Source: a virus. Taken from it: DNA of 22,949 bases. The DNA is taken from IMG/VR virus record IMGVR_UViG_3300034121_000465, positions 1 to 22,949 of that record. The stretch is one strand, 5' to 3'. Made by a program: the position numbers and the translations under genes. Each line of letters opens with the position of its first letter. The first letter of the stretch is position 1. The notes beneath the pieces are model-generated. The model saw nothing but the letters and a program-made list of their open reading frames with translations, did no database searches and was not told the origin of the DNA. This document shows positions 8,262 to 22,547 of the stretch, piece after piece.

Positions 8262-11200
8262 CTAAGCAGCAGCAGGCAGCAAGCGCGGCATCATCGCGGC
8301 AATCAGCGCGTTCAACCGGCCTACTTCCGTCTTGAGGTCGTTGATGACGCCCCGGCTGTCCGTGGCGTAGATGGCTGCCTCGACGTTGGTCGTTGCGTCG
8401 ATCAGGCTGGAAAGGCCGGCTGCGTCGGCGCCTGGCGCAGCGCGGCGCAGCGTGTCGGACGTGCTGTTGACGAGCGCCGCATAGCTGGCGCTGGTGCCCT
8501 CGACATCGCGAACCACCGGCAACGCGGACTGCACAACGCGGGCATACTCCGCGATCTCGGCATCGGTGGCGCCGTCCGCGAATGCACGCCCCGCCGCCGT
8601 GATGGACGCTCGCGCAGCCGCAGCGCGCGCGGCAGGGCTAAGGCCGCCAAGCCCGCCGAAGGACAGGCTCTCGAAAAGCCCGCGCGCCGTGCTGTTGCCG
8701 CTGGCCGTGACGCCGGTTGCTGCCGCAGCCTGCCGCGTGATGTTGGCACGCTCAAGCGCCTGCACCTGTTGCAACCGGTCAACCTGCGTCGCCGTGTCGC
8801 CAGCCTGCGAACCGAGTTCCGTCAACGCATCGCGGAGCGCGGTGACTTGCTGCGCAGCGCCAAGGTCGAAGTCGAGCAGCGCGGCTTCTGTGTCCATGCC
8901 CACGGCGCGGAAATACCGGGACGTGATGCCGCCTTGCAGCGCGCCAATCTGCTGGTTCTGCGCGTCGATCAGTTCCTGTTGCTGCTTGCGCTGCGCCGTC
9001 GAAAGGTTGTCGGTTGCCAAGCCAAGATCGCGCGCGCGGATGATGGCGGCGCTGAACGTGTCGTTAACCGCCTTCATGGCGGTATCGAATTGCGTCGCCG
9101 GTTCCGCCGTGGAACCAAGCACCTCATAGACACTTGTGACCCAAGCCGCCGCTTCGACAGCAGATGACACGGAGGTCATGCCGCTGATAGCGCGCATGAC
9201 GTTATCGTTGGCGCTCACAAGGTCGGCCGCGTCGTTGGAGAACGCGGCGAGCGCGCCGGCAATGTCGCGCGGGTTGTCGGACTGCCCCGAGCCGAGCGCG
9301 CCAGCTAGACCGCCTTCGCCGGAAACCTCACGGAACCGCAGGCCAGAGGCGGATAGCTGCGCGTTGAGTTGCGCGGCCTGCTGGCGTGCCTGCGCCAGCA
9401 CAGCTTCGCGCGCGCCGTCCTGCTCGCCCTTGCCGCTGTACCCCGAGACTTCGACCTGGCCTTGCGCGTTGATGCGCAACAGCGCGTCGCCACCTTCAAA
9501 GCCTTTGCCGGGGCCAATCAGCCCGCCAAGCAGCCCGCCGCCAGCGCCGCCGAGCAGCCCGCCAGCAAGCGTGCCAATGCCGGGGATAATGCTGCCGATC
9601 AGCGCGCCGGCCAGGGCGCCGCCGCCCGACCCGAGCATGCCGTTCGTCTGGCGCGCGGGGCTGGTCGCCGTTAGCGCGGACAGCATCGACCCGAGCGCGA
9701 AACCGCCACCGACGCCGCCAAGCGCGCCGCCGATGCTGATCGGGTTCGACGCGAAGCTGTGCGTCGTGCCGATGCCGAACAGGCTACCGCCCTGCGTCAG
9801 CCCAACGCTTTCAGCCAAGCCGCCAAAGCCGCCGCCGGGGAGGAAGCTAGTCAGGCCGCTAAGGATGCCGGCGCCCGAACCCGCGCCGCTCGTGGCGCCA
9901 GTGAAGCCGACAGCGCCAGCCAGTTCGCGAACAAGCGGCTGCATGACCGTGAGCGAAAGCGCCTCAACCGCCGCGCGCCGCAGGATCGAACCGAAACCGG
10001 AGGCGAGCGACTGAAACACGCTCTCGCCACGAACCGCGCCGGCTTCTAAGGCGTTGAAGGTCACATCAGCGAGGCTGTCGCCAAACCGCTGCACCGTCGC
10101 GTCAAGGCGGCGCGCGTTGGCGTCTGCCTCGCGCTGCACTTCGGTCGCGAGGCGTTCCGCTGCGCGCCGTTCGTTCGCCGCGTTGCGATCCGTGATGGTC
10201 TGAATACCAGACATCGGAAACACGGTCTGGTTGGGATTGTCCGCTTGCTCGTAGACAATCGCCTCACGAACCTGACGCAGCCCGGAGGCCGCGCGCGGGG
10301 CGCTATCGGCCAGCCGGCGCAAGGCTTCGTCGCGCTCACGGTCGGCGGCGGCGCGGAGGCGCTGCGCCTCGGCTTCGTCAATGCCGCCCTGCGTCGTGCC
10401 GCGCGCAAGTTGTTCGCCAATCGCAGCAACGGCGCGCGCATGGGTCTCGCGAACGCCGCGCTCACGGTCGTAGGCAGTGCGCAGGGACGCAAGGCCATCA
10501 TCCGCCTGCCGGCGTTGGTTCGTCGCTGCGCGTTCCGCAGCCTGCGCACGCTCGTATTCCGCGCGCGATGCGCCTTCGCGCTCAAGGTTGATGCGGTTTA
10601 GGATCGCCGCTTCAAGAATTTCGTTCTCGCGGGCAACCTGCGCTTGCAGTTCCGCGACGCGGGCTTCCTGCGTGCCGGCCGCCGCCGCCTGCAACCCGCC
10701 TTGGATGCTGCCGCGCCGCGTACCGTTGCGAATGCCCGGCTCGAACAGATTGAGTTGCTGTTCCAGCACACGAAGGCGCGATTGAGACGCGGCTTCGTCA
10801 GCGCGGGCATCCTCAATCGGCGTGCGACCGAGGCCGGCAGAACGCCGAACACCATCAACGGCGGAAGCTGCGGCATTGACGGCGCGCGCGATGGCCTGCG
10901 AAAGCCCTAGCGCCTTATCCAAATCGGCAGCGAACCGCGTCATCGCGGCCCCAAGCGTCTCAAACGCCCGGCCCATCGTGGGCGGCAGCTTCTCGAACTC
11001 GGCGTTGATCTGCTCACCAGCGCGCAGCAAGGCCGGCAACACGCGGTCGGCCGTCAACTGGCCTTCCGAACCCATCTTGCGGAGTTCGCCAACGCTAACG
11101 CCCAACTCGCGCGCCAGCGCAACGGCGAGGTTGGGCATGTTCTCAAGCAGCGAGCGCAGTTCGTCGCCCTGCAACACGCCGGACGCCAGCGCCTGCGCCA

Positions 11201-11789
11201 ACTGGCCAGCAGCGGCGCTCGCTTCCTGTCCGGACGAACCCGCTACCAGCGCCGCGCGCTGTAGGGTCGCGACAAGCTGCAACGCCTGTTCGTTGGTGCC
11301 GCCGACTTCGCGCGTTGCAATCGAGAACCGCTGAAACGCGCCCGCCGTCTCCGCGACACTGACGCCGGTTTGCAGGCTGATCCGATAGAGCCGGTCGTAG
11401 ATGTCAACCGCCGACTGCACCGAACCCGTCGCGCTGGCCAGCCGGCCTAGCGTCGCCGTCATCTCGTCGCCGGCACGCGCAACGCTGGTCGCGGCTAGAG
11501 CAATGCCACCAAGGCCAGCAGCCGCAGCCGCGCCTGCCACGCCGAGAGAGGACAACCCCGCGCCAATGGGGCCTAGGCGGCTTCCCATGGCTTCCAAAGA
11601 CCGCGTTACGTCTTGCGTAACCGTCCCCACCGCCGAGAGGCTGCCGCCCCTCTGGGCGGCGCGCATAGCCGCCGCATCCAGCTTCTTGAGCGCGCTTTCG
11701 CCAACGTCGCCCATGGCGAGCAGGTCACGGCGCAACTGGTCCGCGCCGTTGACGCTCAGTGAAAGGGTAATGGCCCGCGAACCACTCAT
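8262..11789 (-). CDS. tape measure protein
   Basis: The longest gene in the window, 1175 residues. The tape-measure N-terminal domain covers about 78-260 (DEMTATLGRLASATGS, GVSVAETAGAFQRFS, then GVLQGDELRSLLENMPNLAVALARELGVSVGELRKM). A hydrophobic segment at about 78-103 is preceded by charged helix. A long alanine-, arginine- and glutamate-rich helical region follows, then a glycine-rich hydrophobic stretch (FLPGGGFGGLAESVG through LAGGLLGGAGGGLLGGLIGPG) and helical C-terminus. Tape measures span the tail tube, set tail length and are ejected with DNA. At about 0.15 nm per residue the tail would be near 170 nm if uncleaved, an estimate from the family rule. AGGGGAGG lies six bases upstream of the ATG. 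Confidence 0.95.
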   Translation of the reverse strand: MSGSRAITLSLSVNGADQLRRDLLAMGDVGESALKKLDAAAMRAAQRGGSLSAVGTVTQDVTRSLEAMGSRLGPIGAGLSSLGVAGAAAAAGLGGIALAATSVARAGDEMTATLGRLASATGSVQSAVDIYDRLYRISLQTGVSVAETAGAFQRFSIATREVGGTNEQALQLVATLQRAALVAGSSGQEASAAAGQLAQALASGVLQGDELRSLLENMPNLAVALARELGVSVGELRKMGSEGQLTADRVLPALLRAGEQINAEFEKLPPTMGRAFETLGAAMTRFAADLDKALGLSQAIARAVNAAASAVDGVRRSAGLGRTPIEDARADEAASQSRLRVLEQQLNLFEPGIRNGTRRGSIQGGLQAAAAGTQEARVAELQAQVARENEILEAAILNRINLEREGASRAEYERAQAAERAATNQRRQADDGLASLRTAYDRERGVRETHARAVAAIGEQLARGTTQGGIDEAEAQRLRAAADRERDEALRRLADSAPRAASGLRQVREAIVYEQADNPNQTVFPMSGIQTITDRNAANERRAAERLATEVQREADANARRLDATVQRFGDSLADVTFNALEAGAVRGESVFQSLASGFGSILRRAAVEALSLTVMQPLVRELAGAVGFTGATSGAGSGAGILSGLTSFLPGGGFGGLAESVGLTQGGSLFGIGTTHSFASNPISIGGALGGVGGGFALGSMLSALTATSPARQTNGMLGSGGGALAGALIGSIIPGIGTLAGGLLGGAGGGLLGGLIGPGKGFEGGDALLRINAQGQVEVSGYSGKGEQDGAREAVLAQARQQAAQLNAQLSASGLRFREVSGEGGLAGALGSGQSDNPRDIAGALAAFSNDAADLVSANDNVMRAISGMTSVSSAVEAAAWVTSVYEVLGSTAEPATQFDTAMKAVNDTFSAAIIRARDLGLATDNLSTAQRKQQQELIDAQNQQIGALQGGITSRYFRAVGMDTEAALLDFDLGAAQQVTALRDALTELGSQAGDTATQVDRLQQVQALERANITRQAAAATGVTASGNSTARGLFESLSFGGLGGLSPAARAAAARASITAAGRAFADGATDAEIAEYARVVQSALPVVRDVEGTSASYAALVNSTSDTLRRAAPGADAAGLSSLIDATTNVEAAIYATDSRGVINDLKTEVGRLNALIAAMMPRLLPAAA

Positions 11790-11822
11790 GCGCCGCCTCC
11801 CCTCTCGATACGAAACGTGATG

Positions 11823-12577
11823 TCAGTCTTCCGGCTTGCGCTCAGACGCCCCAAGCCGGACGCCCTGCGCCGCAGCCGCCACCAGCGAGGCCGCTAGAGG
11901 CGCCTGGACGCCTTGCGCCCGCGCCATGGCTAGTGCCCCCGCAACGTCGAGTTCCGCGCCCGCCATGCCGCCCCGTAGGCACGCCATGACGGCACTCAGG
12001 ACGGCAGCGCCGTCCGGTGTCTCAGGCGCGTTGACTACAGCGGGGCAGGAGCCGCATCGCTCTTGGCTTTGCCCTTCGACGCCGGGCCAGCGGGGGGCGC
12101 CGGGGCACCCCGTGCAGCCTCGCTCGCCTCCGGAGAGGCGCCAGCGGAGGAGGCTGCGGAGTCGTTTCCCTCCGCGACCTGTTCCGCCAGGCTGCGGCCA
12201 TAGGCGGTGCGGAACGCCGGGCCGAGGTCCGGATGTTCGGCCATGGCTTCCGTAGCCGCCGGCGTCACCGGCAGCGGTTGGCCGTCATCCCCGTTGATGC
12301 CTTCCCACCGCTTGATAGCGTAGCGAGCGAGCGCGGAGATGTAGAACTGCGCGAACTGCCCATCCAGCCAAGCCGCGTTGGCGCCGTTCGGGCCGAGCGG
12401 GTCCATGGGATGGCCGGTCTTCTCTGCCGCCTCGGCTTCCACGATTAGCGCCGCCGTGCGCTTCTGCGCCTCGGCCTGCGCTGCGGAGTTGATGACGGTC
12501 GTGAGCGGCCGAACTTCGACCTTCACGCCGTAAGGCAGCACCAGCCATTGCGGCTGGCGGTTGAGGTTGAGCTTCAT
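11823..12577 (-). CDS. tail assembly chaperone GT, predicted -1 frameshift product
   Basis: Predicted fusion of 251 residues: the first 138 codons of the G gene, a -1 slip on GGGAAAC at 12170-12164, then 113 codons in the -1 frame to the TGA at 11823-11825. The -1 frame has no stop between the slip site and that TGA. Past the G stop the extra frame reads like real protein (DGAAVLSAVMACLRGGMAGAELDVAGALAMARAQGVQAPLAASL), and its nearest ATG (11987) would give only 54 residues and cut into that coding-like part. In lambda-like siphophages the G and GT products bind the tape measure and tail tube during assembly, and GT is made by exactly this slip. The stretch right after the slip is unusually rich in R, C and W, as expected of a dual-coded linker. 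Confidence 0.75.
12035..12577 (-). CDS. tail assembly chaperone G
   Basis: A 180-residue protein between tail tube and tape measure genes, the usual place for the G chaperone. It opens with MKLNLNRQPQWLVLPYGVKVEVRPLTT, a beta-hairpin-like start typical of phage tail assembly chaperones, followed by helices (INSAAQAEAQKRTAALIVEAEAAEK, WLDGQFAQFYISALARYAIKRW) that include a small domain ending at about residue 138. The last 42 residues are an A/S/P/G/K linker and overlap the frameshifted T reading frame. AAGGA lies about ten bases before the ATG. The 0-frame stop is the TAG at 12035-12037. The role comes from position, length and the accompanying frameshift signal more than from a sharp sequence motif. 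Confidence 0.8.
   Translation of the reverse strand: MKLNLNRQPQWLVLPYGVKVEVRPLTTVINSAAQAEAQKRTAALIVEAEAAEKTGHPMDPLGPNGANAAWLDGQFAQFYISALARYAIKRWEGINGDDGQPLPVTPAATEAMAEHPDLGPAFRTAYGRSLAEQVAEGNDSAASSAGASPEASEAARGAPAPPAGPASKGKAKSDAAPAPL
12114..12170 (-). promoter_or_regulatory. -1 programmed ribosomal frameshift signal
   Basis: GGGAAAC at 12170-12164 is a canonical X-XXY-YYZ heptamer and lies in the correct phase (GAG GGA AAC, codons 137-138). It is one base different from lambda's GGGAAAG. A six-nucleotide spacer (12163-12158) leads to an 8-bp stem, GCAGCCTC (12157-12150) with GAGGCTGC (12121-12114). This encloses a 6-bp hairpin, CGCCTC (12140-12135) and GAGGCG (12130-12125), with a TCCG loop of the stable UNCG type. 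Slip site, spacing and structure together match known G/GT signals. Confidence 0.75.
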
Positions 12578-12591
12578 GGCTGGGGTTGTCC

Positions 12592-13557
12592 TTACGAAGC
12601 CGAGTAGGACGCGATCTGGTTTTTGACGGTGGCCTGCATGACGCCCGTGGACGAATGCGGCCCCGCGACCCAGCGGAAGGTCTGCGTGATGCCACGCGGC
12701 CCGCTGATCGGCGCGCCCTGAGGCGTGATGTAAGTCCGGCCGAAGTTGAAGACGATTGACGTGTTGGCGTCGATGGTCCAGCCGTAGGTGATGGCGGCCG
12801 GCGACTGCGTGGCAACCGCCGCATCGTAGAGCGTGATGGTCTCAAACCGCGACGTGAACGTCCCGGACGCCGCAGCAAGGCCAAAGTCGATGTCTTCCAT
12901 GAGGTAGTCGCCACGCACGGCGGCAACCATCTCCATGTCGTTGGTAAAGGTGAAGTCGCACGACGTGATGCCGGCGAGCGTCGATCCGCTGCGGGTCAAC
13001 ACGCCCTGCGCGTTGAAGTAGCGCGCGAAGGACGTGACAACCGCCGTGCCCGCGCCCGTGCTGGCATTGGAAACCTGAGACAGCCCCATCAGGCCAACCG
13101 TCGCCTGCGCGGCGCCGTCCGGGCCGAGCGACACGCGAAGCGTGTTCGCGCGGACGCCAGCGGTGCGGATGAAAGCGTCGGTCGCAAGGTCCGCGTGCGC
13201 CACTTCCATGGAGTTGGACGGCAGCGCCGCAGATCCGGACGTGAAGACGTGCGTGTAGTTGGTGCTGCCCGAAGTGGACGGCGCGCCGCACAGCAGCCGC
13301 ATCCACCGCGCGAAATGCACCGTGTCCAGCGGAACCACAACGTCGCCCTCGACGCGGATCAGGCCGAAGAACGGATCTGCGCTGTCGCGGTTTGCGACGG
13401 CAGAGAGCAGCGCGTCTTGATCCAGGCCCTGCGTCTTGCTCATGTTGATCGAGAAGAAGGGCACTTGGTTGTAGTTCACCGACCCAACGAACGTGCCGGC
13501 GGTGACTTCGGGATACATGCGCAGCTTTGCATTGCTGCCTTGAGCTACGACGCCCAT
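12592..13557 (-). CDS. tail tube (major tail) protein
   Basis: A 321-residue protein with the pattern of the phage tail tube family: an N-terminal segment MGVVAQGSNAKLRMYPEVTAGTF, then VPFFSINMSKTQGLDQDALLSAVANRDSADPFFGLIRVEGDVVVPLD, and a C-terminal beta-rich domain ending QATVKNQIASYSAS. Tube proteins stack as hexameric rings around the tape measure to form the DNA channel. Position between the tail terminator and the G chaperone fits. AGGAG is ten bases upstream of the ATG. Length and composition are normal for the family, and no extra Ig-like domain is seen. Confidence 0.85.
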   Translation of the reverse strand: MGVVAQGSNAKLRMYPEVTAGTFVGSVNYNQVPFFSINMSKTQGLDQDALLSAVANRDSADPFFGLIRVEGDVVVPLDTVHFARWMRLLCGAPSTSGSTNYTHVFTSGSAALPSNSMEVAHADLATDAFIRTAGVRANTLRVSLGPDGAAQATVGLMGLSQVSNASTGAGTAVVTSFARYFNAQGVLTRSGSTLAGITSCDFTFTNDMEMVAAVRGDYLMEDIDFGLAAASGTFTSRFETITLYDAAVATQSPAAITYGWTIDANTSIVFNFGRTYITPQGAPISGPRGITQTFRWVAGPHSSTGVMQATVKNQIASYSAS

Positions 13558-13598
13558 TGCCTGCTACTCCTGATTGTTGGGGTTGCGGCAGGGCCGCG

Positions 13599-14045
13599 TT
13601 ACGGGTTGTCCGTGTAGTAGGACCACGAGAAAACGAACGTCGTCGCGCCATACGCGCGGTTATAGATCGGCGCATCCGGCGCGCCGTCGTAGATGCCCCG
13701 GCCGTACTGCGCCGCGTCTGGCGTCCAGCCGATCAACGACGCGAACAGCGCATCCCTCGCGTTCAACAGCCGCTCGCTTGCATCCTGCCCGGTCTGGTCG
13801 GTCGTGCCGCTCACGATGACGGTGATCGAGAACGTCGTCTCAATCTGGTCGCTCATCGTGTCTAGCTCTTGGTCGTCGGCCGGCGCATCGCCTTCCCACA
13901 CGACATAGGCGCAAGGCACGGCAAGCCCAGCCTTCGCCTCGACCAGCTTATCAAGCGCATCGTCGCGCCCAATCAGCCCGGCAACACGCGTGCTGAAGAA
14001 CGTGCAATCCGTCCGCAGCCGCTCAATGATCGCAGCGGGGCGCAT
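13599..14045 (-). CDS. tail terminator (gp37/gpU-type) protein
   Basis: A 148-residue protein between the gp10-type neck protein and the tail tube. It has an N-terminal helical part (IIERLRTDCTFFSTRVAGLIGRDDALDKL) and a strand PCAYVVWEGDAPADD. A central beta-strand TFSITVIVSGTTDQTGQDASERLLNARDALFASLIGWTPD and a final strand TTFVFSWSYYTDNP complete the alpha-beta pattern seen in tail terminators of the Mu gp37/lambda gpU kind. These cap the finished tube and dock it on the head. The start overlaps the gp10-type stop as TAATG. Confidence 0.65.
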   Translation of the reverse strand: MRPAAIIERLRTDCTFFSTRVAGLIGRDDALDKLVEAKAGLAVPCAYVVWEGDAPADDQELDTMSDQIETTFSITVIVSGTTDQTGQDASERLLNARDALFASLIGWTPDAAQYGRGIYDGAPDAPIYNRAYGATTFVFSWSYYTDNP

Positions 14046-14659
14046 TACCGTCCGAACCCTGCAACGGCGGCAGCAACCCGCGCCTCAAGGTCTCGCGTCA
14101 ACCGAGCCTGCAACGGCGTAAACACAGGACGAGGCGCCAGCGAGCCGGCAGACGCACGCGCAACCGCGCGCTGCTTCCGCGACTTGCCGTTGACCAGCTT
14201 CGCGCGGCGCGTCACGCGCGGCTTGGTGCCAAACTCCAAAAAGTGCCGATAGAACGCCGTCCCGCGATCCGCAAACACGCGCGCCGAGAAGGCATTGCCA
14301 CGCCCGCCGACCTTGGTTCGGATGGCGCGGAGCATTGTGCCCGTAGCAACCGCAGGAGCCTCGCCAGGCGCCGAGGCGGTGTAGTTGGCTACGCTTGCCC
14401 GCGCCGCCGCTACAACCCGCCCTGTGCGCGTCTGGTTGCCAATGGTGACGGTCTTCCGTACTTGCTTATAGACTGAACGCCCCGCGCGCTTGGCGTAACG
14501 GCGGCCCTTCTTGCTGGATCGCAGTTCGCCGAGCAGCTTCGTCCGATACTCGCGCGCGAGGTCGCGGATGGACTGCCGGATCGCCTGATCCAGCTTTCCC
14601 TGCGCAATCTTGAGGTCAAGGAACGCCGTGCGGCCGGCGGTAATGCGCATGTCGATCAT
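14045..14659 (-). CDS. HK97 gp10-family head-tail/neck protein
   Basis: A 204-residue basic protein with the family's landmarks: SAPGEAPAVATGTMLRAIRTKVGG in the middle, then AFYRHFLEFGTKPR and RPVFTPLQARLTRDLEARVAAAV at the end. HK97 gp10-type proteins take part in joining head and tail. The N-terminus is a long charged helix with KKGRRYAKRAGRS, more basic than usual. The start forms an ATGA overlap with the head-closure gene, and the stop overlaps the tail terminator start. The family call is strong; the exact position in the neck is inferred. Confidence 0.8.
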   Translation of the reverse strand: MIDMRITAGRTAFLDLKIAQGKLDQAIRQSIRDLAREYRTKLLGELRSSKKGRRYAKRAGRSVYKQVRKTVTIGNQTRTGRVVAAARASVANYTASAPGEAPAVATGTMLRAIRTKVGGRGNAFSARVFADRGTAFYRHFLEFGTKPRVTRRAKLVNGKSRKQRAVARASAGSLAPRPVFTPLQARLTRDLEARVAAAVAGFGR

Positions 14660-14988
14660 GCCACAACCTCCGGCGCCAGTTCCGTCGCGAACACGTCGAG
14701 ATAGCGCCGCCGGTTGTCGGGATCGCGAACGCCCCGGACAATCCAGCGCCGCCCGCCTTCCGCGCTCACATGGTCAAAGTCAGTCCGCGCGCGCCACCGA
14801 ATGCGGATGACGTGCGTCGCCGCGTCGCTGGTCTGCAACGCCTCGGCATAGGCGCCCTCGCGGACGCCGCGCAACTCGCCCCACACATTCTCAACGACCG
14901 TGTAGGTAACGGTCATCCCCGTTGCGCCAGTCGGCGCCTGCGCCTGCGCCTCAAGCGTCAGGTAGTCGCGAAGCCGGCCGGCGGGCAT
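14656..14988 (-). CDS. head-tail adaptor (head closure) protein
   Basis: A 110-residue protein. It shows the head-tail joining family pattern: an N-terminal MPAGRLRDYLTLEAQAQ that introduces a beta-barrel, VENVWGELRGVREGAYAEALQ, then THVIRIRWRARTDFDHV and RRWIVRGVRDPDNRRRYLDVFATEL. Members such as SPP1 gp16 close the packaged head and contact the tail. It starts one base after the connector gene stop with no strong Shine-Dalgarno sequence, suggesting coupled translation. Confidence 0.85.
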   Translation of the reverse strand: MPAGRLRDYLTLEAQAQAPTGATGMTVTYTVVENVWGELRGVREGAYAEALQTSDAATHVIRIRWRARTDFDHVSAEGGRRWIVRGVRDPDNRRRYLDVFATELAPEVVA

Positions 14989-14989
14989 A

Positions 14990-15580
14990 CTAGATGGTCC
15001 ACACGCGGTAAGGATCGAGCAGCCGCTTTACCGCCGGAATTTCCGTCAACGGACGTTCCGCCGAAGCCTCGCGGTTTTCGTACAACTCGCCCACAATCAG
15101 AAGCATCGCCGCACGCAGGGCCGCCGGGACGTTCGCCGCGCTCACATAGCCCGCCGAGAACGTCACCCGCACGGCGTCAACCGTGTCCGGCTGCGTTTCC
15201 GGCCAGTTCTCGCCGTATGCCGGTGCCAGGTAGCCCGGCTGCGCGTGCGCACCCGATGGCGTCGCCACCTGATACAGCGCGCCCGAAATCGTCTCCGCTT
15301 CGCCGTCCGCGTTCGTTATGGCAAGCGCCGTCACGGACACGAGCGGCGGCTTCGGCAGCATGATCGGACCGTTGTCCGCCGGAAACTCAGGCATCGTGAT
15401 CTGCCAGGTCTGCGGCATCAGGACGCGCCCCGTGTGCGCCTCGACGCTCTCGCGCGCGGCCTGCAAATACGCCGCGATGATCGCCGCGTCGGTGCCATCG
15501 ACAGGCGCGCGAATATGCGCCTGCACGTCCGTGAGCGAGACAGGCTCGCTCGTGGGCGCGGTGATTAGCCGAAGGTCCAT
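14990..15580 (-). CDS. gp6-like head-tail connector protein
   Basis: A 196-residue protein from the ATG at 15580. A longer in-frame reading to 15682 is rejected because its first 34 residues are arginine-rich and read like a frame shadow of the upstream gene. The sequence MDLRLITAPTSEPVSLTDVQAHIRAP, then AAIIAAYLQAARESVEAHTGRVLMPQTW and a C-terminal ALRAAMLLIVGELYENREA, matches the helical gp6-type connector (phiE125 gp8/HK97 gp6-like) that sits under the portal. No clear Shine-Dalgarno sequence precedes the start; a strong hairpin is there instead (see separate entry). Confidence 0.8.
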   Translation of the reverse strand: MDLRLITAPTSEPVSLTDVQAHIRAPVDGTDAAIIAAYLQAARESVEAHTGRVLMPQTWQITMPEFPADNGPIMLPKPPLVSVTALAITNADGEAETISGALYQVATPSGAHAQPGYLAPAYGENWPETQPDTVDAVRVTFSAGYVSAANVPAALRAAMLLIVGELYENREASAERPLTEIPAVKRLLDPYRVWTI

Positions 15581-15588
15581 GATGGTGC

Positions 15589-15612
15589 GGAGGCGGCCCG
15601 AAAGCCGCCCCC
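15589..15612 (-). other. stem-loop just upstream of connector start
   Basis: In the 40-base gap, GGGGGCGGC (15612-15604) pairs with GCCGCCTCC (15597-15589) around the loop TTTCGG. That is nine pairs with one G-U wobble. It ends eight bases before the connector ATG and has no following T-run, so it is not a terminator. It occupies the place where a ribosome binding site would be expected. Confidence 0.5.
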
Positions 15613-15620
15613 TACTCCCG

Positions 15621-16049
15621 TCAGATCGGCGGGTTGGCGGTCGGCAGGATCGCCGGATTGGCCAGCAGCGCGATAGCCGCAACGAAGATGTTGCCGCTGT
15701 CGTTGCCGCTCGGCGTGATCGTCAGCCGCACATATCGCTTGGTGCCGCTGTAGCCGATCTTGCGGGTTTCCGTGTCGTCGGCGAAGGTGAAGCCGGCGAG
15801 CGCATAGGTGCCCACCAGATCGGCCGCCGCGACGGCATTGGACCCGCTCATGCCGCTATCGTCGCTTTCGTCCATCGTAACGGCGAAAGTCGCGTTCGCG
15901 TCGGTGTTCGTGCCCGTCACGATCAGCCACGTCAGGCTGTCATAGCCCTTCGTGTCGATGATGCTGGAAACGATGGCTGTGTTGTCGGTCCGCGCCGCAA
16001 CCGGCGGGATCGCCGAAAGCGGGTGGATGTTGTTCATCATGTCGCGCAT
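15621..16049 (-). CDS. conserved phage head protein, function unknown
   Basis: A 142-residue, beta-rich, acidic protein. Its layout is familiar by eye from HK97-like phages of alphaproteobacteria: an opening MRDMMNNIHPLSAIPPVAARTDNTAIVSSIID, a central DSLTWLIVTGTNTDANATFAV and a late KIGYSGTKRYVRLTITPSGNDSG. It is always small and near the capsid gene. I infer a possible capsid decoration or head-completion role from size, composition and location only. GGAG stands ten bases before the ATG, just after the T-run of a terminator. If that terminator is efficient, this gene and all genes after it are expressed less than the capsid gene. Confidence 0.6.
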   Translation of the reverse strand: MRDMMNNIHPLSAIPPVAARTDNTAIVSSIIDTKGYDSLTWLIVTGTNTDANATFAVTMDESDDSGMSGSNAVAAADLVGTYALAGFTFADDTETRKIGYSGTKRYVRLTITPSGNDSGNIFVAAIALLANPAILPTANPPI

Positions 16050-16063
16050 TTGAAACTCACTCC

Positions 16064-16083
16064 AAAAACTCCGCTTGCGGAGT
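16064..16083 (-). terminator. intrinsic terminator after HNH gene
   Basis: In the transcript the stem ACTCCG (16083-16078) pairs with CGGAGT (16073-16068), loop CAAG, and continues into five T residues (16068-16064). It lies between the HNH stop and the next gene, inside an otherwise gapless structural operon. A further small hairpin, GCGCC (16102-16098) and GGCGC (16093-16089) with a GCGA (GNRA) loop, lies just upstream. Confidence 0.65.
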
Positions 16084-16121
16084 GGTTAGCGCCTCGCGGC
16101 GCCGGGAACGCGGCGACCTTT

Positions 16122-16952
16122 TTACGGGTCGAGCGCCGCGAGTAGTGTGTCGGGATACTGCTCCAAAATGCGGCGCGCCCATGCGACAAGATCGGCGGGA
16201 CGTTGGCCGCTCGGTTGGGCAGTAACCCATAGCTCTAAATTCTCTGGCCGGTTGTCTGACCGGATGCCGTTTTTGTGGTGGACGCTTTCCGTAGGCAGGA
16301 GCGTGCGCCCGATTTTTTCAGCCATTACTGCGCGGTGCTCGTAAACCCGGCTCGTCGTGCCGGCTTTCTGCGCGTGCGATTTATCTGTCCAGTAGATATA
16401 GCCATTTTGATCAATAAGCTTGCCGCCAATATTCTGGCGCCGCAACACTAACCCGCCACGCTCAGGTGAGCCGTGTTTCATTAATCTAGCGTAATGGGCC
16501 GCACAGTAACCCCGCGCTATAGCGTAATGCCGACATTCGGCGACATCACAGTGACGCTTATTTTGCTGCTCCCTCCAAGAACGGCGCATTGGGCCGCCCC
16601 CGTTGGGGACGCCGTATTTTTTTTGGCGGTAGTAATGCGCGCAGCAATATCCTCGCGCTAGAATTGGCTTCCCGCAATCATCAACATTGCAAGGAGCAAC
16701 ACCAGTTTTAGCTGTTCGCGGCTCGGCTTTGGTCGGTCTGGAAGCCTCGATACTTCCACCACGGCGGAACCGCCGATAGTGCATATTACAAAGGCCGCGC
16801 CTTATGTCGCCGACCGACCCACACCCTGAAACGGAGCAAGCGCGGCTGTTTTGCGGCGACAACCGGCCAACATATTCAGGTGTCGTTGTGTCTTCGCACA
16901 CAAAGACGCTCAGGCGAGACGCGCTCGCCTGAGTTTCCTGCGCCAGCGACAT
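16122..16952 (-). CDS. HNH endonuclease with three zinc-finger-like repeats
   Basis: A 276-residue protein inserted directly after the capsid gene. Three repeats have the form C-x4-C-x9/10-C-x2-H: C39/C44/C55/H58, C88/C93/C103/H106 and C135/C140/C150/H153, each followed by an aromatic and basic residues (HYRRFRRGG, HYYRQKKYG, HYARLMKHG). They are likely DNA-binding zinc ribbons. The HNH domain follows: RVYEHRAVMAEKIGR at about 203-217, then SVHHKNGIRSDNRPENLELW at about 223-242. Base composition is visibly more AT-rich than neighbouring genes, including a run of eight A's (16624-16617). The ATG at 16952 is uncertain: the first 36 codons overlap a 10-bp perfect hairpin and lack conserved features. 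Likely a freestanding homing-type nuclease acting on DNA near the capsid gene. Confidence 0.8.
   Translation of the reverse strand: MSLAQETQASASRLSVFVCEDTTTPEYVGRLSPQNSRACSVSGCGSVGDIRRGLCNMHYRRFRRGGSIEASRPTKAEPRTAKTGVAPCNVDDCGKPILARGYCCAHYYRQKKYGVPNGGGPMRRSWREQQNKRHCDVAECRHYAIARGYCAAHYARLMKHGSPERGGLVLRRQNIGGKLIDQNGYIYWTDKSHAQKAGTTSRVYEHRAVMAEKIGRTLLPTESVHHKNGIRSDNRPENLELWVTAQPSGQRPADLVAWARRILEQYPDTLLAALDP
16909..16933 (-). terminator. perfect 10-bp stem-loop after capsid gene
   Basis: CTCAGGCGAG (16933-16924) pairs exactly with CTCGCCTGAG (16918-16909) around CGCGT, 30 bases past the capsid stop. A weak T-rich stretch (CGTCTTTGTG) follows, so it could act as a leaky terminator or transcript-stabilising hairpin. 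It lies within the annotated first codons of the HNH gene. Confidence 0.45.
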
Positions 16953-16962
16953 AAAGCCGCTA

Positions 16963-18264
16963 TTAGCTCCCGAACTTCAGGAGCTTAATTGCCTCGAAAT
17001 TAACCACGCCTCCACCCACACGCTTCCTGAACTTGAAGAAAACGTAAGGATAAGACGTGTACGGATCGCGCAGCACCGACAGGCCGATGCGGTCCACGAT
17101 CTGGTAGCCCTCGCGGAAGTCACCGAACGCCATCGACAGGCTCCCGGTGCCGAGCGCCGGCATGTCCTCGGCTTCCACCACCGGGAAGCCCAGCAGCGAG
17201 GAAGGCTGCCCCGCCGTCGCCGCCGGCTGCCAGATGAAGTTGCCCTGCCCGTCCTTGAGCTTGCGGGCTGCGCCCAGCACGGCGCGGTTGGTCATCCAGC
17301 GCGCATTGCCGCGATACGCGGCCTTGAGCGCGTAGATGACGCTGATCAGGTCGTCCACCGGGTTGGTGTCACCGGAGCGCGTGCGGAAAGCGCCGTTGGC
17401 GCCGGTCGCGATGTGTTCCAGTTGGCCCCAGGTCCGGGTCGCATCGGCGGTCGCGGCGGTCGTGTAGTCCGTGAAGCCACGCGGCTTGCTGATGCCGTTG
17501 CCGGACACAAAGGCGGTGTTTTCGCCGCGCGCAATGCGGTCGGCAGACTTCATCGCCAGCCACGCCTCAAGGTCGAGGCGCGCGTCTTCCAACACCTTCT
17601 GCGTGGCGCTCACGACGGACACAGCCTCGTGGACCGGGATGGACCACTTGCCAAGCTGCGCCGAGGTGTTCTCGCTGCGCGTGCCGGTCTCGCCCACCCA
17701 GGCAAAGCCGTTCTCGCCGAGGTCGGCCAGCCCTTCCACGGTGTCGGTGCCGATGGACATGACCGACGCAACCTGCCGCATGGGCGAGGTCTCGTAGATG
17801 CGCGACACGATGCGGCCGGTCGTGTCCGGCGTCACCAGATAGCCGCCGTCCGGATCGCTGCCGACGCTCATCGCCTTCGCCTCGGCATCGCCGGGGCGCG
17901 TGGTGCGGAGCGGACCCTTCATGCCGTACAGCGCGGCCTTGTAGGCGCGCAGGTCATCGACGTTGACCACGTTGCCGGTCTGCTCGCCGAACGCCTTGGC
18001 GGTCTTGGTCTCGATCTCGTCGGCCGGGCCGCCCGCCAGGTTGAGGCGGTTCGACTTGGCTTCCAGTTCGTCGGCGCGCTTGGTCGCGGCCTTGATGTCG
18101 TCGGCCACCTTGTCGAGCGCCGCGTTGATGCGGTCCAGCTTGTCGTTGGTGACGACATCGCCCTTCATCCGCTTCACCTCGGCGTCGAGGTCATTCACGG
18201 TGGACTTGAAGGCAGCGAAGGTCTCGCCCTGCTTTTCGAGCAGAGCCTTGATCTCGGGTTCCAT
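16963..18264 (-). CDS. HK97-type major capsid protein
   Basis: The ATG at 18264 is chosen over an in-frame TTG at 18270 because AGAGGA sits six bases before the ATG and would touch the TTG. The product is 433 residues. Residues 1 to about 75 are charged coiled coil (the delta, scaffold-like domain: IKALLEKQGETFAAFKSTVND through AATKRADELEAKSNRL). At about 131 the sequence changes to MSVGSDPDGGYLVTPDTTGRI, where this family is normally cleaved, leaving roughly 300 residues. The HK97 fold follows: IVSRIYETSPMRQVASVMSIGTD, SAQLGKWSIPVHEAVSVVSATQKVLEDA, TNRAVLGAARKLKDGQGNFIW, LLGFPVVEAEDMPAL and the final YPYVFFKFRKRVGGGVVNFEAIKLLKF. It builds the head shell; no separate scaffold gene is present. 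The protease gene is directly upstream. Confidence 0.95.
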   Translation of the reverse strand: MEPEIKALLEKQGETFAAFKSTVNDLDAEVKRMKGDVVTNDKLDRINAALDKVADDIKAATKRADELEAKSNRLNLAGGPADEIETKTAKAFGEQTGNVVNVDDLRAYKAALYGMKGPLRTTRPGDAEAKAMSVGSDPDGGYLVTPDTTGRIVSRIYETSPMRQVASVMSIGTDTVEGLADLGENGFAWVGETGTRSENTSAQLGKWSIPVHEAVSVVSATQKVLEDARLDLEAWLAMKSADRIARGENTAFVSGNGISKPRGFTDYTTAATADATRTWGQLEHIATGANGAFRTRSGDTNPVDDLISVIYALKAAYRGNARWMTNRAVLGAARKLKDGQGNFIWQPAATAGQPSSLLGFPVVEAEDMPALGTGSLSMAFGDFREGYQIVDRIGLSVLRDPYTSYPYVFFKFRKRVGGGVVNFEAIKLLKFGS

Positions 18265-18270
18265 AGTCAA

Positions 18271-18276
18271 TCCTCT
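18271..18276 (-). promoter_or_regulatory. ribosome binding site of capsid gene
   Basis: AGAGGA six bases before the ATG at 18264. It decides between this start and the nearer TTG, and it overlaps the protease stop codon by one base. Confidence 0.6.
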
Positions 18277-18932
18277 CAGGACAGGGTTGCGATGTTCCGG
18301 CGAAGCAATTCCGCCAGTTCCGCCGCGCCCGCCTCGTCCCGAGGGGTCGTTTCCGGCTCTCCGTCCTCACGACGGAGCCACGTCTTGAAGACGGACACGG
18401 CGCGCTTGCGCTCGGTCTGGGAAAGCCCTGCGTCACGCAGAGCGTCTTCAATTTCCCGGATTTCACCACCCGTCAGCGACTTCACGGAAGTCACACGCGC
18501 CGCCTCATTCATCGGGAACGGCACAAGGGAGATTTCAAAAAGGTCCAGTTCCTTCAACAGCCGCGCGCGACGGCGCCCATCGTAGGCATCCGACTTGACG
18601 CGGTAGCCAATCGACAGGCCATCCAGCGCACCGGCCTTGAGGTCGATGTGCGCTTCCTTGCCGATGGCCTTCTCGACCAGCAGCCGCCCGCGCACTTTGA
18701 GGCCGTGTTCGTCCTCGACCATCTCATCCCACACGCCAACCCGCTTGGTCGGATCGTGGTCCGCGAGCATCTTAATGCCCTTGGCGCCGCGTTCGCGGAG
18801 CGTCTTCGTGAAGGCGCCAGGCTCCACAATGTCGCCGCCGCCATCGCGGTTGCCGAAAACAGAAGCGTAGCCCTCAAACGCGCCGTCTTCGTTCAGCGCC
18901 TTCAAGTCTAAGGCGAAGTCAAGCCGCTGCAT
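18276..18932 (-). CDS. prohead (HK97-type) protease
   Basis: A 218-residue protein from the ATG at 18932, chosen because GGAGG lies eight bases upstream; starts at 18947 and 18995 lack this. It overlaps the portal stop by 14 bases. The S78/U35-type herpesvirus-like protease fold is shown by FEGYASVFGNRDGGGDIVEPGAF, the catalytic histidine in KMLADHDP (H59), the catalytic serine in ALDGLSIGYR (S107) and the strand LFEISLVPFPMN (about 131-142). It cleaves the capsid N-terminal domain after assembly. The C-terminal 60 or so residues are charged and arginine-rich. Order portal-protease-capsid is that of HK97. Confidence 0.92.
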   Translation of the reverse strand: MQRLDFALDLKALNEDGAFEGYASVFGNRDGGGDIVEPGAFTKTLRERGAKGIKMLADHDPTKRVGVWDEMVEDEHGLKVRGRLLVEKAIGKEAHIDLKAGALDGLSIGYRVKSDAYDGRRRARLLKELDLFEISLVPFPMNEAARVTSVKSLTGGEIREIEDALRDAGLSQTERKRAVSVFKTWLRREDGEPETTPRDEAGAAELAELLRRNIATLS

Positions 18933-20124
18933 CAACTGCGCCTCCATCCGCCGTAGTAGTTTGCGGGGGTTTTGGCAGGTCGTCGCCGCCTGCAATCCAA
19001 TCTAGGCCGTCTTCCTCTCGCGCCTCGTTCGGCGTCATCCATGCCGGCGATCCACCCGAACCGAGCGCCCGCGACAGATACTCCGCGCGATCCTTGGCGG
19101 CGCCGCGCATGAGGCCCTTGAGGTCGAAGCGGATGTCGATGTCGGTCTCGTCGCCAAGCAACGCGCGCTCTGCCGACTGCTCGATCCGCGTCGCCCATGG
19201 CGTGATCGTGTGGACCACATGCGCGATGAACATCTGCTCGGCGCTGGCATAGGTCGAGGTCTTATCGGAGTAGCCCGCCATCATCGGGATTACCCGCAGC
19301 GCGCGGCAGATTTCCTCCACCTGATGCTTGCGCGTCTCAAGGTGCTGCGCGTCAACGCCGCTCATTGTCTGTTGCAGCCACTTCGCCGCGCGATCCATCA
19401 CTAGCGGCTTGCCGCCGTTGTCAGACCCAGAATAGTGCTTCGCGATCCACCGGCTTAGTTGCTCGTGCTGCGGTTCCGTCAACGCGCCATCGACCGACCA
19501 GACGCCGCTAGGCCGCACGCCGTTCTTGTGCAGCCGCGCGTGTGCTTCCTCGGTCGCCAGCGCCAGGCCGATTGCCTCGCGCGCCAGCTTGATAGCCTCC
19601 AAGCCCATCCAGCTATTCCACGACGGGCCGCGAAGGTGCCACACGTCGCCGGTCGTCAGGATCGGCGAGCGCCCGTCATCCCATGTGATCTGGTAGGTAA
19701 GACTCATGTCCGGCTTGCGATCCACCAGAACCTTGCCCGGCTCGATGGGGATCAACTCGCGAACTTCGCCGCGAACCCGGTTCACGTAGACAAAGGCATT
19801 GCCGCACAGCACCAGATGGAACAGCAGCGTTTCGCGGAACTCGAAGCTGGTCTGCCACGGGTTAGGCTGCCGCGCGAGCAGCGACAGCAACGGATGCGAC
19901 AACAACGGCACGCGCCGCCCCGTCCCCGCGTCGATGCGATAGAACTTGATAGGAACCTGCGCCACGCCCTCCGCAATGGCGCGCGCGCAGGCCAGCACCG
20001 TCGCCACTTCAAGCGCGCGGCTGGTGTTGATCTGAACGCCAGTCTTGCTTTCCGGCCACGTCGAGAACTCGGGAAGGCTCTGGATGCCCGCCTTTCGAGA
20101 GAACAGGCGGCTAAACAACCCCAT
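18919..20124 (-). CDS. phage portal protein (HK97 family)
   Basis: The ATG at 20124 is chosen over the one at 20142 because AGGAGG lies six bases before it. The product is 401 residues and begins MGLFSRLFSRKAG. HK97-family portal landmarks follow: ALEVATVLACARAIAEGVAQVPIKFYR, LLARQPNPWQTSFEFRETLLFHLVLCGNAFVYVNR, GDVWHLRGPSWNSWMGLEAIKLAREAIGLALATEEAHARLHKNG, then RKHQVEEICRALRVIPMMAGYSDKTSTYASAEQMFIAHVVHTITPWATRIEQ. The dodecameric portal is the DNA entry and exit channel of the head. The terminase stop TAG forms part of its ribosome binding site, a sign of coupled expression. Confidence 0.95.
   Translation of the reverse strand: MGLFSRLFSRKAGIQSLPEFSTWPESKTGVQINTSRALEVATVLACARAIAEGVAQVPIKFYRIDAGTGRRVPLLSHPLLSLLARQPNPWQTSFEFRETLLFHLVLCGNAFVYVNRVRGEVRELIPIEPGKVLVDRKPDMSLTYQITWDDGRSPILTTGDVWHLRGPSWNSWMGLEAIKLAREAIGLALATEEAHARLHKNGVRPSGVWSVDGALTEPQHEQLSRWIAKHYSGSDNGGKPLVMDRAAKWLQQTMSGVDAQHLETRKHQVEEICRALRVIPMMAGYSDKTSTYASAEQMFIAHVVHTITPWATRIEQSAERALLGDETDIDIRFDLKGLMRGAAKDRAEYLSRALGSGGSPAWMTPNEAREEDGLDWIAGGDDLPKPPQTTTADGGAVDAAA
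18941..18945 (-). promoter_or_regulatory. ribosome binding site of protease gene
   Basis: GGAGG eight bases before the ATG at 18932, within the portal coding region. It fixes the protease start 63 bases inside the longest possible reading frame. Confidence 0.6.
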
Positions 20125-20130
20125 TCGCCG

Positions 20131-20136
20131 CCTCCT
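20131..20136 (-). promoter_or_regulatory. ribosome binding site of portal gene
   Basis: AGGAGG six bases before the ATG at 20124, overlapping the terminase stop codon by two bases. It supports the start at 20124 over 20142. Confidence 0.65.
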
Positions 20137-21796
20137 ACGCATCAACTTCCCAGAAGGAACGGCCGGAAGCAGCCGGTTGCAAACTCATCAGATGCACCGC
20201 GTTGAACAGCGCCATCAGCGGATCAATCTTCGCCGTGCCGCTGGCCTGCTTTGTAATCAGGATTGAATTGCCTCGCGGCTCGACCTTGGCGTTGCCGACC
20301 GACCACGCCATCAACGCCTGCCCAGCATGCACGAACGCGCCCTCGGCTAGCTTGCGCTCTGCCGTCTTGATCGCGCCGCCCAACCGCCAGCCCTGCGACA
20401 CCGCCGCAACCTGCTCGCCTTCGATCCCTGCTTCCGTCAGCGCATCAAGGATCGCGCCGATACCCGCCGGGTCCAAGCCGATGCCGTGCTTTTCAGGCAG
20501 CAAGCCCGCGTCGCGCACAGCGCAAACAATCTCGACCACCTCAGCGATATCGTCGCCCATGCGATCAACCAGCCGCAGGTCGCCGGCAACCGCGAAGTCG
20601 CGCAGTTTCGGCGCCTCGCTCTGCCGACGCTTCAACACCACCGGGTGCGCCCAGGCCCGCCCCCAATGGAGCCACGCCCGCGTCTCGCGGCAACGGCCCA
20701 GCACCGCCAAGCCTAGCAAGTCGTCCAGCCCGCCGCCGTCGATGCCGACAACGGCCACCTCGGCGCGCGCTAGCAGCGCGTCCAGGGTCAACGTCTTGTC
20801 GCCGGCATCCTGCCAGTAGTCGGCGCCGGCCCATCGGTCGGACAGAAGGGCAAGGCCGATTTCAACGTTGAGGTGCTGCGAAGCCCAGCGCCGCAGTTCG
20901 CCGTCGCCGGCCTCCTTCGCCGCGTGGTAGTCGCTGACAAGCCTATCCACAGTGATAGAAAGGCCGTTGTTCGGCGTGACCAGCGGCCAGTTTGCCGCGT
21001 CCTGCCAATCCATCCCTTCCGGGAACTCGTACAGCACAGGCAGAAGCGGCGCAGATATGCGCCCGTCCCTGACTGCTCGCGCCTTCATCAACTCTGAGCG
21101 GAACACGCCGGCAGGCGGGCGCTCTGATTGCGTGGTGATCGTGACCAAAAAGGCTTCCGGCTGCGAGATAAGCCCGCCGCGCAACTGCCCGATAACCCTG
21201 TCCGCATCAGGCGAGTTCGCCACAACGTGGATTTCGTCAAGCAGTACGCCTGCCGGCTTAGACCCCGTGACCACCTTTGGGTCAAACGACTTGACCTTCA
21301 GAAAGGCGCCAGTCGGACGATAAGTGATCTTCTTCAAGTGCGGCTGCGGATAGAACTTCGCGGCCAGCACTTCATCCGCCTCTACCATACCCAAGGCTTG
21401 GCGGTAGGCGAGGTCAGCAACCTCCTGCGTCGGTGCGACCAGCAGAAATTCCGCGCGAGGCCGCTTGTTCATCAGCACTGCGGTAATCATGAGCGCCGCA
21501 GAATAGGTCGTCTTGGACGACTTCTTCGGCGCGAGGATGAAGGCTTCCTGAATATGCCTGATGTTCGACACAGGGTTATGAGAGCCGAACAGCGCGGCAA
21601 CGATATCGCGGAACCAATCGCCACCGGCGGTCGCCAGTTCCGGCTGCCCCACAACGTCTGGCAGCCGTAGCTTGTTGAAAACCCCAACCGCGCGCGCGGC
21701 CTCAGCCTTGTTCAGCGGAAGTGACGGAACAAGCGAGCGTCCCGACCTAATCCTATCCGCCCAGTCGCGGCAGCTTGTATCCCAATTCTCCGCCAT
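20135..21796 (-). CDS. terminase large subunit
   Basis: A 553-residue protein with GGAG five bases before its ATG. The N-terminal ATPase domain has a deviant Walker A, ILAPKKSSKTTYS (about 87-99), a hydrophobic strand FLLVAPTQEVADLAY and Walker B VLLDE (184-188), followed by the coupling motif TITTQSE (219-225). The C-terminal nuclease domain has VVGIDGGGLDD (D353 as first metal ligand) and GIGLDPAGIG further on. Length is normal for the Terminase_1/HK97 family. It pumps DNA through the portal using ATP and cuts the concatemer. The HNH gene before it ends 17 bases upstream. Confidence 0.93.
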   Translation of the reverse strand: MAENWDTSCRDWADRIRSGRSLVPSLPLNKAEAARAVGVFNKLRLPDVVGQPELATAGGDWFRDIVAALFGSHNPVSNIRHIQEAFILAPKKSSKTTYSAALMITAVLMNKRPRAEFLLVAPTQEVADLAYRQALGMVEADEVLAAKFYPQPHLKKITYRPTGAFLKVKSFDPKVVTGSKPAGVLLDEIHVVANSPDADRVIGQLRGGLISQPEAFLVTITTQSERPPAGVFRSELMKARAVRDGRISAPLLPVLYEFPEGMDWQDAANWPLVTPNNGLSITVDRLVSDYHAAKEAGDGELRRWASQHLNVEIGLALLSDRWAGADYWQDAGDKTLTLDALLARAEVAVVGIDGGGLDDLLGLAVLGRCRETRAWLHWGRAWAHPVVLKRRQSEAPKLRDFAVAGDLRLVDRMGDDIAEVVEIVCAVRDAGLLPEKHGIGLDPAGIGAILDALTEAGIEGEQVAAVSQGWRLGGAIKTAERKLAEGAFVHAGQALMAWSVGNAKVEPRGNSILITKQASGTAKIDPLMALFNAVHLMSLQPAASGRSFWEVDA

Positions 21797-21813
21797 GGGG
21801 TCTCCACGACGGA

Positions 21814-22482
21814 TCAGAGCAGCGTTAGCCGCTTCCCGCCCTTGGATTGGTTGTCCTTAGCCCACATCGGCCGCAGGTTTGGAAGCCCCCAGCACACCTT
21901 AAAGTCGGCATCCTCGGCAGTCTCAATGCGAAACGCCGAGACGGGAACGATGTGGTCGATGTGTATCTCGCCACGGAATACTGCGGCCCATGTCATCCCG
22001 CGCGTAAATTGGCGCTCGATGTGCGTTTTAAGGGATGCTGCGCTATAACCAAGCAGCGATTCAGTTGTGCGCCCCGCCTTCCCCGTTAGCATCATCCTCA
22101 GCCGGCTACTGACGCGGCACTTAAGACGGAACGCCGCATCGGCGGCGCGCCTGTCGCGCATCCTCCTAGCTTCAGACGCCCTTGCGTGGTCGATATTTTT
22201 TGCGCGCCACTTCGCGACATACTGCGTCGATGGGTTATCCGCCCGGTAGCCATCGTTATAGGACTTCACGTAGTCCTTATTGGCGTCACGCCAAGCTTTC
22301 TGGCGGGCCTTCTGGTCCGGCCGCCCCCTACGCTCTGCGTCATCAGCTCTTTTGCACTGACGGCAGAACGGATGAAGCCCAAACCTACCAAGCTTATGAG
22401 GAGAAAAAGCATCCAAGGTCGCAGCCTTGGCCACGCCGCACTTGGTGCAGACCTTCGTCTGCCCTATCATCTCGTCAGCCAT
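21814..22482 (-). CDS. HNH endonuclease between terminase genes
   Basis: A 222-residue protein. The N-terminal zinc ribbon has C12-x2-C15 and C40-x2-C43. A long basic, helical middle follows (about 44-130). Then come LLGYSAASLKTHIERQFTRGMTW and the HNH core EIHIDHIVPVSAF (H174, D176, H177) with CWGLPNLRPMWAKDNQSKGG (N202, N211). In HK97 a small HNH protein next to the terminase helps cos cleavage, so a packaging role is possible. The extra zinc ribbon, its place inserted between small and large terminase genes, and the hairpin-promoter leader before it also fit a freestanding homing endonuclease. The ribosome binding site is weak (GGATGAGAG nearby). Confidence 0.85.
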   Translation of the reverse strand: MADEMIGQTKVCTKCGVAKAATLDAFSPHKLGRFGLHPFCRQCKRADDAERRGRPDQKARQKAWRDANKDYVKSYNDGYRADNPSTQYVAKWRAKNIDHARASEARRMRDRRAADAAFRLKCRVSSRLRMMLTGKAGRTTESLLGYSAASLKTHIERQFTRGMTWAAVFRGEIHIDHIVPVSAFRIETAEDADFKVCWGLPNLRPMWAKDNQSKGGKRLTLL

Positions 22483-22511
22483 TCCGCGCTCTCATCCAGC
22501 GTTGGTGGTCA

Positions 22512-22547
22512 GGGCCGGTTGAGGTGTTGGAAGCACCTCGCCGGCCC
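22512..22547 (-). other. long stem-loop in HNH gene leader
   Basis: GGGCCGG (22547-22541) pairs with CCGGCCC (22518-22512), and GAGGTG (22539-22534) pairs with CACCTC (22526-22521), with a 1/2-base internal bulge and a 7-base loop. That makes 13 perfect pairs in the 91-base gap between the small terminase gene and the HNH gene. It has no T-run in the minus-strand direction. In the opposite direction it is followed by GAATTTATTCT. Confidence 0.75.

Follow-up and report, generated by a model that had tools for sequence, protein, structure and literature searches.

Hairpins kept in place behind the capsid gene and its neighbor in a viral head-tail gene row, and a weaker hairpin that may hide a translation start

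In the puf operon of Rhodobacter, an intercistronic hairpin acts as a 3′-end stabilizer or processing boundary. Several phage systems are closer to the locus studied here and are described below from excerpts of the papers cited. Behind gene 10 of T7 lies Tphi, an inefficient terminator (PMC3276506). In phage L, which is P22-like, a terminator is predicted in the late operon at the end of the procapsid module; the operon is thought to have a single promoter, and partial termination is named as one possible role, the roles being stated to be unknown (PMC8022706). In T4, a weak terminator lies in the 5′ end of the mobE frame and about 30 percent of transcripts end there, while for I-TevI, soc, and other genes a stem pairs with the late-gene Shine-Dalgarno sequence (PMC2988022). 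Translating ribosomes can suppress termination close to a stop codon: an E. coli terminator located 5 bp past the stop gave less than 10 percent termination, and one located 28 bp past it about 90 percent (PMC4824070).

The window analyzed here, a virus record of 22,949 bases, carries the terminase, portal, protease, capsid, HNH, X, and connector genes on its minus strand, as well as the head-completion, tail terminator, tail tube, and tape measure genes. The major capsid protein gene (HK97-type, positions 16963 to 18270; Pfam Phage_capsid, E 2.4e-80) is followed by an HNH endonuclease gene (16122 to 16952; Pfam HNH_3, E 1.1e-8) and by a gene of 142 amino acids, here termed gene X (15621 to 16049; PHROG 5707), which has a beta-rich model and is the usual neighbor of the capsid gene in relatives. 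A sequence-only reading of this DNA had placed an intrinsic terminator at 16064 to 16102, behind the HNH gene, and had suggested that it either arrived with that gene or keeps capsid message more abundant than tail message. The setting it described was borne out. Where at least 11 downstream head and tail genes had been claimed, 13 non-overlapping minus-strand frames of more than 100 amino acids were selected from the frame list, and in line with the claim that no promoter is obvious after the site, a scan covering the sigma-70-like type found none on either strand of 8000 to 22949, with 2.0 expected. A second endonuclease gene (endonuclease VII-like, PHROG 1035) was noted on the minus strand at 21814 to 22482, between the small and large terminase genes.

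On the minus strand, 16064 to 16102 consists of a hairpin A, five bases, a hairpin B, and a run of five T. Hairpin A (16089 to 16102), upstream of hairpin B, has a 5-bp stem and a GCGA tetraloop (-9.2 kcal/mol). Hairpin B (16068 to 16083), the terminator of the sequence-only reading, has a 6-bp stem with a CAAG loop and begins 38 nt past the HNH stop. Both lie in a 72-nt gap that separates the HNH frame, ending at 16122, from the next ATG, that of gene X, at 16049. The claimed stem and T run are therefore present behind the HNH gene, though weak: only four of the six base pairs of hairpin B are G-C, its energy is -7.4 kcal/mol, and the first T of the run (16064 to 16068) is also the last paired base of the stem, so that the full stem is followed by four T and then GGAG. 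The scan tool passed over hairpin B, for which counting the sixth pair leaves only four T. In 8000 to 22949, a simple scan gave 8 terminator-like sites versus 11.9 in shuffles, i.e., no excess. A plus-strand terminator-like site at 16100 to 16115 was considered as the feature and was rejected because the head and tail genes are on the opposite strand. An Rfam search of 14900 to 17200 gave nothing over the gathering score, the sole match to E 1 being RsmW on the plus strand at E 0.3.

The frequency of such a structure was estimated from shuffled sequences. A hairpin at least as stable as B with at least four T in the next five bases appeared in 40 of 2,000 dinucleotide shuffles of the 72-nt gap, and the whole minus strand held 2 sites like hairpin B with its T run against 1.2 expected; hairpin B thus beats chance locally but is nothing unusual on a strand of 23 kb. 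The 39-nt stretch 16064 to 16102 folds at -18.4, a value reached by 2 of 300 shuffles, and unusual stability was not found for the whole 72-nt gap (74 of 300 shuffles as low).

The surroundings of gene X offer hairpin B another partner. The Shine-Dalgarno region of gene X, GGAGTGAG (16056 to 16063, minus strand), lies 7 nt ahead of the ATG, and CACUCCG, which forms the 5′ arm of hairpin B, can pair with its GGAGUG at -10.5; over the same 28 nt, hairpin B gives -8.0. This competing stem (CACUCC with GGAGUG, 16058 to 16084, minus strand) had an equilibrium probability of 0.71 to 0.98 in six contexts, versus 0.02 to 0.29 for hairpin B, and was preferred in all six. The Shine-Dalgarno region is paired in the predicted fold, with an unpaired probability of 0.004 to 0.066 at 37 C over the same number of contexts; the value of 0.004, obtained in the 102-nt context, was also reached in 6 of 400 sequences with a shuffled upstream part. 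Among the matches listed, 1 of 103 relatives had a Shine-Dalgarno region as closed as that of the window, and the median unpaired probability in relatives was 0.337. The masking fold is an equilibrium prediction made without ribosomes, and the evidence on hairpin B comes from one virus; among the relatives listed, it was not found outside this virus and near-identical contigs.

These predictions suggest that the hairpin at 16064 may hide the start of gene X as much as it stops transcription. During transcription, the short hairpin and its U's would cause slight termination; hairpin B completes first in the emerging RNA, and it could therefore have a kinetic role as a weak terminator. After polymerase passage, its 5′ arm would re-pair with the gene X Shine-Dalgarno region, lowering initiation on X, translational masking being here a reading of predicted folds. 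Taken further, the CACUCCG arm might act as a two-state RNA switch, forming either a leaky terminator hairpin or the stem that hides the Shine-Dalgarno region, such that read-through messages would be damped in translation and the dose of a putative capsid accessory protein would be reset after HNH insertion. On the folding models, this last scheme is a long shot. That hairpin B is instead a functionless chance structure in the G+C-rich gap left by HNH insertion is possible, if on the whole doubtful. A chance fold is made likelier because GGAGT occurs twice beside the Shine-Dalgarno region, and it would agree with the ordinary stability of the whole gap, the near-expected number of such sites on the minus strand, the lack of excess terminator-like sites in 8000 to 22949, and the restriction of hairpin B to one virus among the relatives listed, but the two shuffle results, 40 of 2,000 for the hairpin with its T run and 6 of 400 for the masking, argue against it.

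The identity of gene X was approached by structure and sequence comparison. An AlphaFold model built from 19 sequences (pLDDT 77.7) gave, among the best 50 PDB matches listed, weak and beta-rich hits with query TM of at most 0.51 and 8 to 16 percent identity, and none of these 50 was a phage head decoration protein. The best 50 BFVD matches listed were mostly uncharacterized or unnamed viral proteins, the top one being an uncharacterized phage protein with query TM 0.75, and a search of PDB sequences gave nothing below E 0.07. One GenBank record labels a homologue “capsid protein.” As neither structure nor sequence gave a telling match, gene X is regarded as a putative capsid accessory protein gene from its position.

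To place the locus among relatives, loci were gathered from viral contigs (at least 80 for X, 23 for the capsid protein, and at least 80 for HNH), and further X loci were taken from named bacterial genomes (at least 80) and from viral contigs (at least 80 more), with some loci repeated. Hosts in the named-genome set of X relatives were mostly alphaproteobacteria. On reading the gaps, G+C-rich hairpins were seen between the capsid gene and X in most relatives listed. For counting, a strong hairpin was defined by a dG of -10 or lower together with a shuffle P of 0.05 or lower, and only non-redundant gaps of 35 to 160 nt were scored; 30 of 161 non-redundant capsid-gene ends had gaps outside this range. 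Gene ends of relatives were taken from tblastn, and ends were dropped when the C-terminus was uncovered, no stop was nearby, or no next start with a Shine-Dalgarno sequence followed (capsid 25, X 50, portal 50, protease 64, terminase 32, connector 31, others 4). Seven loci that are copies of the window virus were left out of the count.

Among the matches listed, 103 of the 131 gaps that follow the capsid gene contained a strong hairpin, as did 81 of the 100 that follow X. The other gene ends, a small control set, together had one in 9 of 43 gaps (portal 3/15, protease 6/19, terminase 0/3, connector 0/5, tail terminator 0/1), and each of the two positions differed from these 43 gaps with a Fisher P of about 1e-11. 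A first pass with fewer loci had given 41 of 46 for capsid, 30 of 34 for X, and 4 of 22 for the others; in that pass, median gaps behind the terminase, portal, protease, and connector genes were 0 to 17 nt. Most other gene ends have no room for a hairpin, and the presence of a gap therefore itself belongs to the pattern.

Nine loci (L034, L187, L189, L273, L290, L292, L310, L316, and L319) carry a changed gene order, with the connector gene between the capsid gene and X. The hairpin stayed behind the capsid gene in seven of the nine (five of six by distinct sequence), and none was found in the gap between connector and X at any of the nine. The element therefore goes with the capsid gene's 3′ end rather than with the beginning of X. 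Covariation on aligned gaps was not found for either the capsid-end hairpins (28 same, 4 one-sided, 9 two-sided, and 41 broken cells) or the X-end hairpins (60 same, 7 one-sided, 5 two-sided, and 9 broken), with three clusters of at least three members per gene end, of which the largest (25) did not align; it was dropped as evidence because the hairpin sequences are too divergent to align.

The bases following the stems were then compared with their surroundings. Behind capsid-end hairpins, T made up 42, 47, and 50 percent of the first three bases 3′ of the stem and 17 to 20 percent of bases 12 to 14, while G made up 4 to 9 percent at the first four. In the eight bases after the stem, T averaged 3.29, where the remainder of the gap predicts 1.46; for X-end hairpins, the two values were 2.77 and 1.52. 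The excess was directional: comparing T after the stem with A before it (eight bases each) gave 43 up and 14 down at the capsid end (P 5e-5, n = 75, the number of the 103 hairpins with room on both sides) and 33 up and 16 down at the X end (P 0.001, n = 64). This T excess fits terminators with degraded U tracts, and on these sequence features the family elements can fairly be read as leaky terminators within the operon. At least four T in the next eight bases were found for just 42 of 103 capsid-end and 28 of 81 X-end hairpins, and many family hairpins would therefore be poor as canonical terminators. The remaining 61 of the 103 capsid-end hairpins, among the matches listed, and the strong stems near the stop codon are what would be expected if the family hairpins were mainly 3′-end stabilizers or processing boundaries, guarding capsid and X message after cleavage. 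That explanation is rather unlikely, as stabilization alone does not predict a T excess that is directional and fades with distance from the stem. Capsid-end hairpins begin a median of 13 nt past the stop codon (upper quartile 20 nt). Ribosomes can suppress termination at such a spacing, which counts against a terminator role, and capsid translation may itself tune these hairpins.

Both family elements have counterparts in the window, on the minus strand. A 10-bp hairpin at 16909 to 16933 (-17.1), behind the capsid gene and inside the 5′ end of the HNH frame, matches the capsid-end hairpin, and one at 15589 to 15612 (-18.3), behind gene X, matches the X-end hairpin; hairpin B is an extra, weaker structure behind the HNH gene. 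The likely connector start, an ATG at 15578 to 15580 (minus strand), has no evident Shine-Dalgarno sequence, and the X-end hairpin stops 8 nt before it. The 16909 to 16933 hairpin lies 29 nt past the capsid stop at 16963 and has four T in the next eight bases, and the 71 nt around it fold with a z of -4.4. Its spacing exceeds the upper quartile of relatives; at least 28 nt was found in 12 of 103 (among the matches listed). If the first ATG of the HNH frame is used, the hairpin coincides with codons 7 to 15, and this location inside a frame speaks against a leaky terminator there, though 29 nt separate it from the stop.

With a stronger hairpin already behind the capsid gene, hairpin B and its T run are unlikely to be the operon's working attenuator, lowering tail relative to capsid message. 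The low count in gap shuffles, the lack of an evident downstream promoter in the sigma-70-like scan, and a distance from the HNH stop that would suffice with respect to ribosomes, going by the excerpt of PMC4824070, would suit that role, but the stem is weak and is followed by four T and GGAG, the competing Shine-Dalgarno fold is preferred, and hairpin B is absent from the other lineages listed. The attenuator proposed by the sequence-only reading is supported in kind, in that relatives keep capsid-end and X-end hairpins with a T-rich 3′ side, and not in detail: the family element is already found at 16909 to 16933, ahead of most of the HNH gene, and the hairpin at 16064 is weaker, was seen among the relatives listed in this virus and near-identical contigs only, and competes with a Shine-Dalgarno stem. 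Capsid-favoring attenuation fits the family, and the element carrying it would most likely be 16909 to 16933, with 15589 to 15612 behind X. At 16064, a weak terminator or masking of a translation start is likelier, on the folding models, than the main capsid/tail attenuator. Comparison with relatives lacking the HNH gene showed that a hairpin here needs no such gene.

The proposal that hairpin B and the HNH gene arrived together in one mobile cassette was examined in loci carrying HNH genes. Of 83 loci in which HNH was matched (among the matches listed, with window copies included), 30 had it immediately following a capsid gene; after five further duplicate loci were removed, 24 other non-redundant capsid-adjacent HNH genes were available. 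Among these, again in the matches listed, the stretch between the capsid stop and the HNH core folded with z of -2 or lower in 18 of 24; no folded stretch was found there in L106, L107, and L147 (z 0.2 to 0.6), and the window virus gave -1.5 because just 40 nt were folded. Behind HNH, the next gene was less than 30 nt away or overlapping in 14 of 24. At least 30 nt was available in 10 of 24, with z of -2 or lower in 5 of the 10 and a run of four T only in L108, where a 7-bp stem and five T follow an HNH gene that itself lies behind the capsid gene. Structure before HNH is thus usual and a T-run hairpin after it is not. L106 and L107, the nearest HNH relatives listed, have the gene at the same capsid-X junction, and there its stop runs into the next Shine-Dalgarno sequence. 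Alignments of the window HNH with these two closest homologues listed begin at residue 28, and the L106 frame starts at the residue equivalent to 28, directly after a stop codon. L108 and the five folded gaps speak for joint arrival, yet with 14 of 24 HNH genes lacking such a gap, L106 and L107 included, the proposal finds little support and is improbable.

Other structures were seen near endonuclease genes. Long stems between the capsid stop and HNH in L108 (2932 to 2942), L109 (2933 to 2943), and L139 (2890 to 2900) have a common tip, TGCTGGWAACA, differ in their other sequence, and have no Rfam match. In L151 (534 to 583) and L172 (2730 to 3000), hairpins that resemble the T4 endonuclease hairpins seem, by eye, to enclose the HNH Shine-Dalgarno sequence or start codon. 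At five loci, an int-alpA RNA (Rfam RF02996, scoring above the gathering threshold) immediately precedes genes that resemble homing endonucleases, an HNH gene in L161 (2889 to 2956) and, by eye, GIY-YIG-like frames in L189 (4464 to 4528), L292 (4466 to 4530), L316 (4472 to 4537), and L345 (1501 to 1567). The longest frame begins 14 to 19 nt past this RNA in 7 of 15 loci, several such frames not being endonucleases; the RNA may be a leader controlling the following gene.

Taken together, the strong capsid-end and X-end hairpins have, on sequence grounds, about an even chance of being leaky terminators and/or 3′-end stabilizers, with hairpin B as a further weak element. Phages of this kind have strong hairpins at the 3′ ends of both the capsid gene and X within one long head-tail gene row, and leaky termination, 3′ stabilization, or both would yield more capsid and X message than tail message. 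In the window virus, the HNH gene sits between the capsid gene, with its hairpin at 16909 to 16933, and gene X. The hairpin at 16064 would terminate weakly at best, and its main effect may be masking of the gene X start; by itself, it is of minor importance. Predicted terminators inside late operons have been described, with roles stated to be unknown in the phage L excerpt (PMC8022706). Here, the position of two such elements is conserved, although their sequence is not, across 103 and 81 non-redundant loci among the matches listed. Since place is kept at two gene ends of the head module and the capsid-end hairpin tracks its gene when gene order changes, the idea that these elements set capsid-to-tail dosage is directly testable in cultured hosts. 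In the excerpts available from the literature searched on hairpins and terminators behind capsid genes, no description of the capsid-end and X-end pair was found, nor was the pair described in those on KP34-like phages, phiCbK, AchV4, phage K, the actinophage capsid, or Rhodobacter RNase E.

Compared with the described systems, as far as the excerpts go, the family hairpins, including 16909 to 16933, share with Tphi of T7 and T3 a location among the structural genes, as a stem-loop that follows the capsid gene. The window hairpin is strong, stands close to the capsid stop, and has counterparts in relatives without HNH, whereas hairpin B does not adjoin the capsid gene, the HNH gene intervening. 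Tphi differs in working on the phage's own RNA polymerase and in its stem of 15 to 17 bp, while the hairpins here are predicted terminators. Phage L belongs to another phage group, and its excerpt concerns one site, with no comparison over many relatives (PMC8022706). T4 mobE, likewise a free-standing HNH gene flanked by two others, has its hairpin within the 5′ end of the frame, which recalls 16909 to 16933; it differs in having a promoter after mobE before the next gene, whereas no sigma-70-like promoter was found in the scanned part of the window, and 16909 to 16933 matches an element that relatives carry without an HNH gene. The pairing predicted for gene X is that of the T4 hairpins that sequester Shine-Dalgarno sequences. 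For I-TevI, relief comes via a late promoter, whereas the sigma-70-like scan found none here, and unlike in the T4 hairpins, the masking arm of this virus can, in the predicted folds, also form a terminator-like hairpin.
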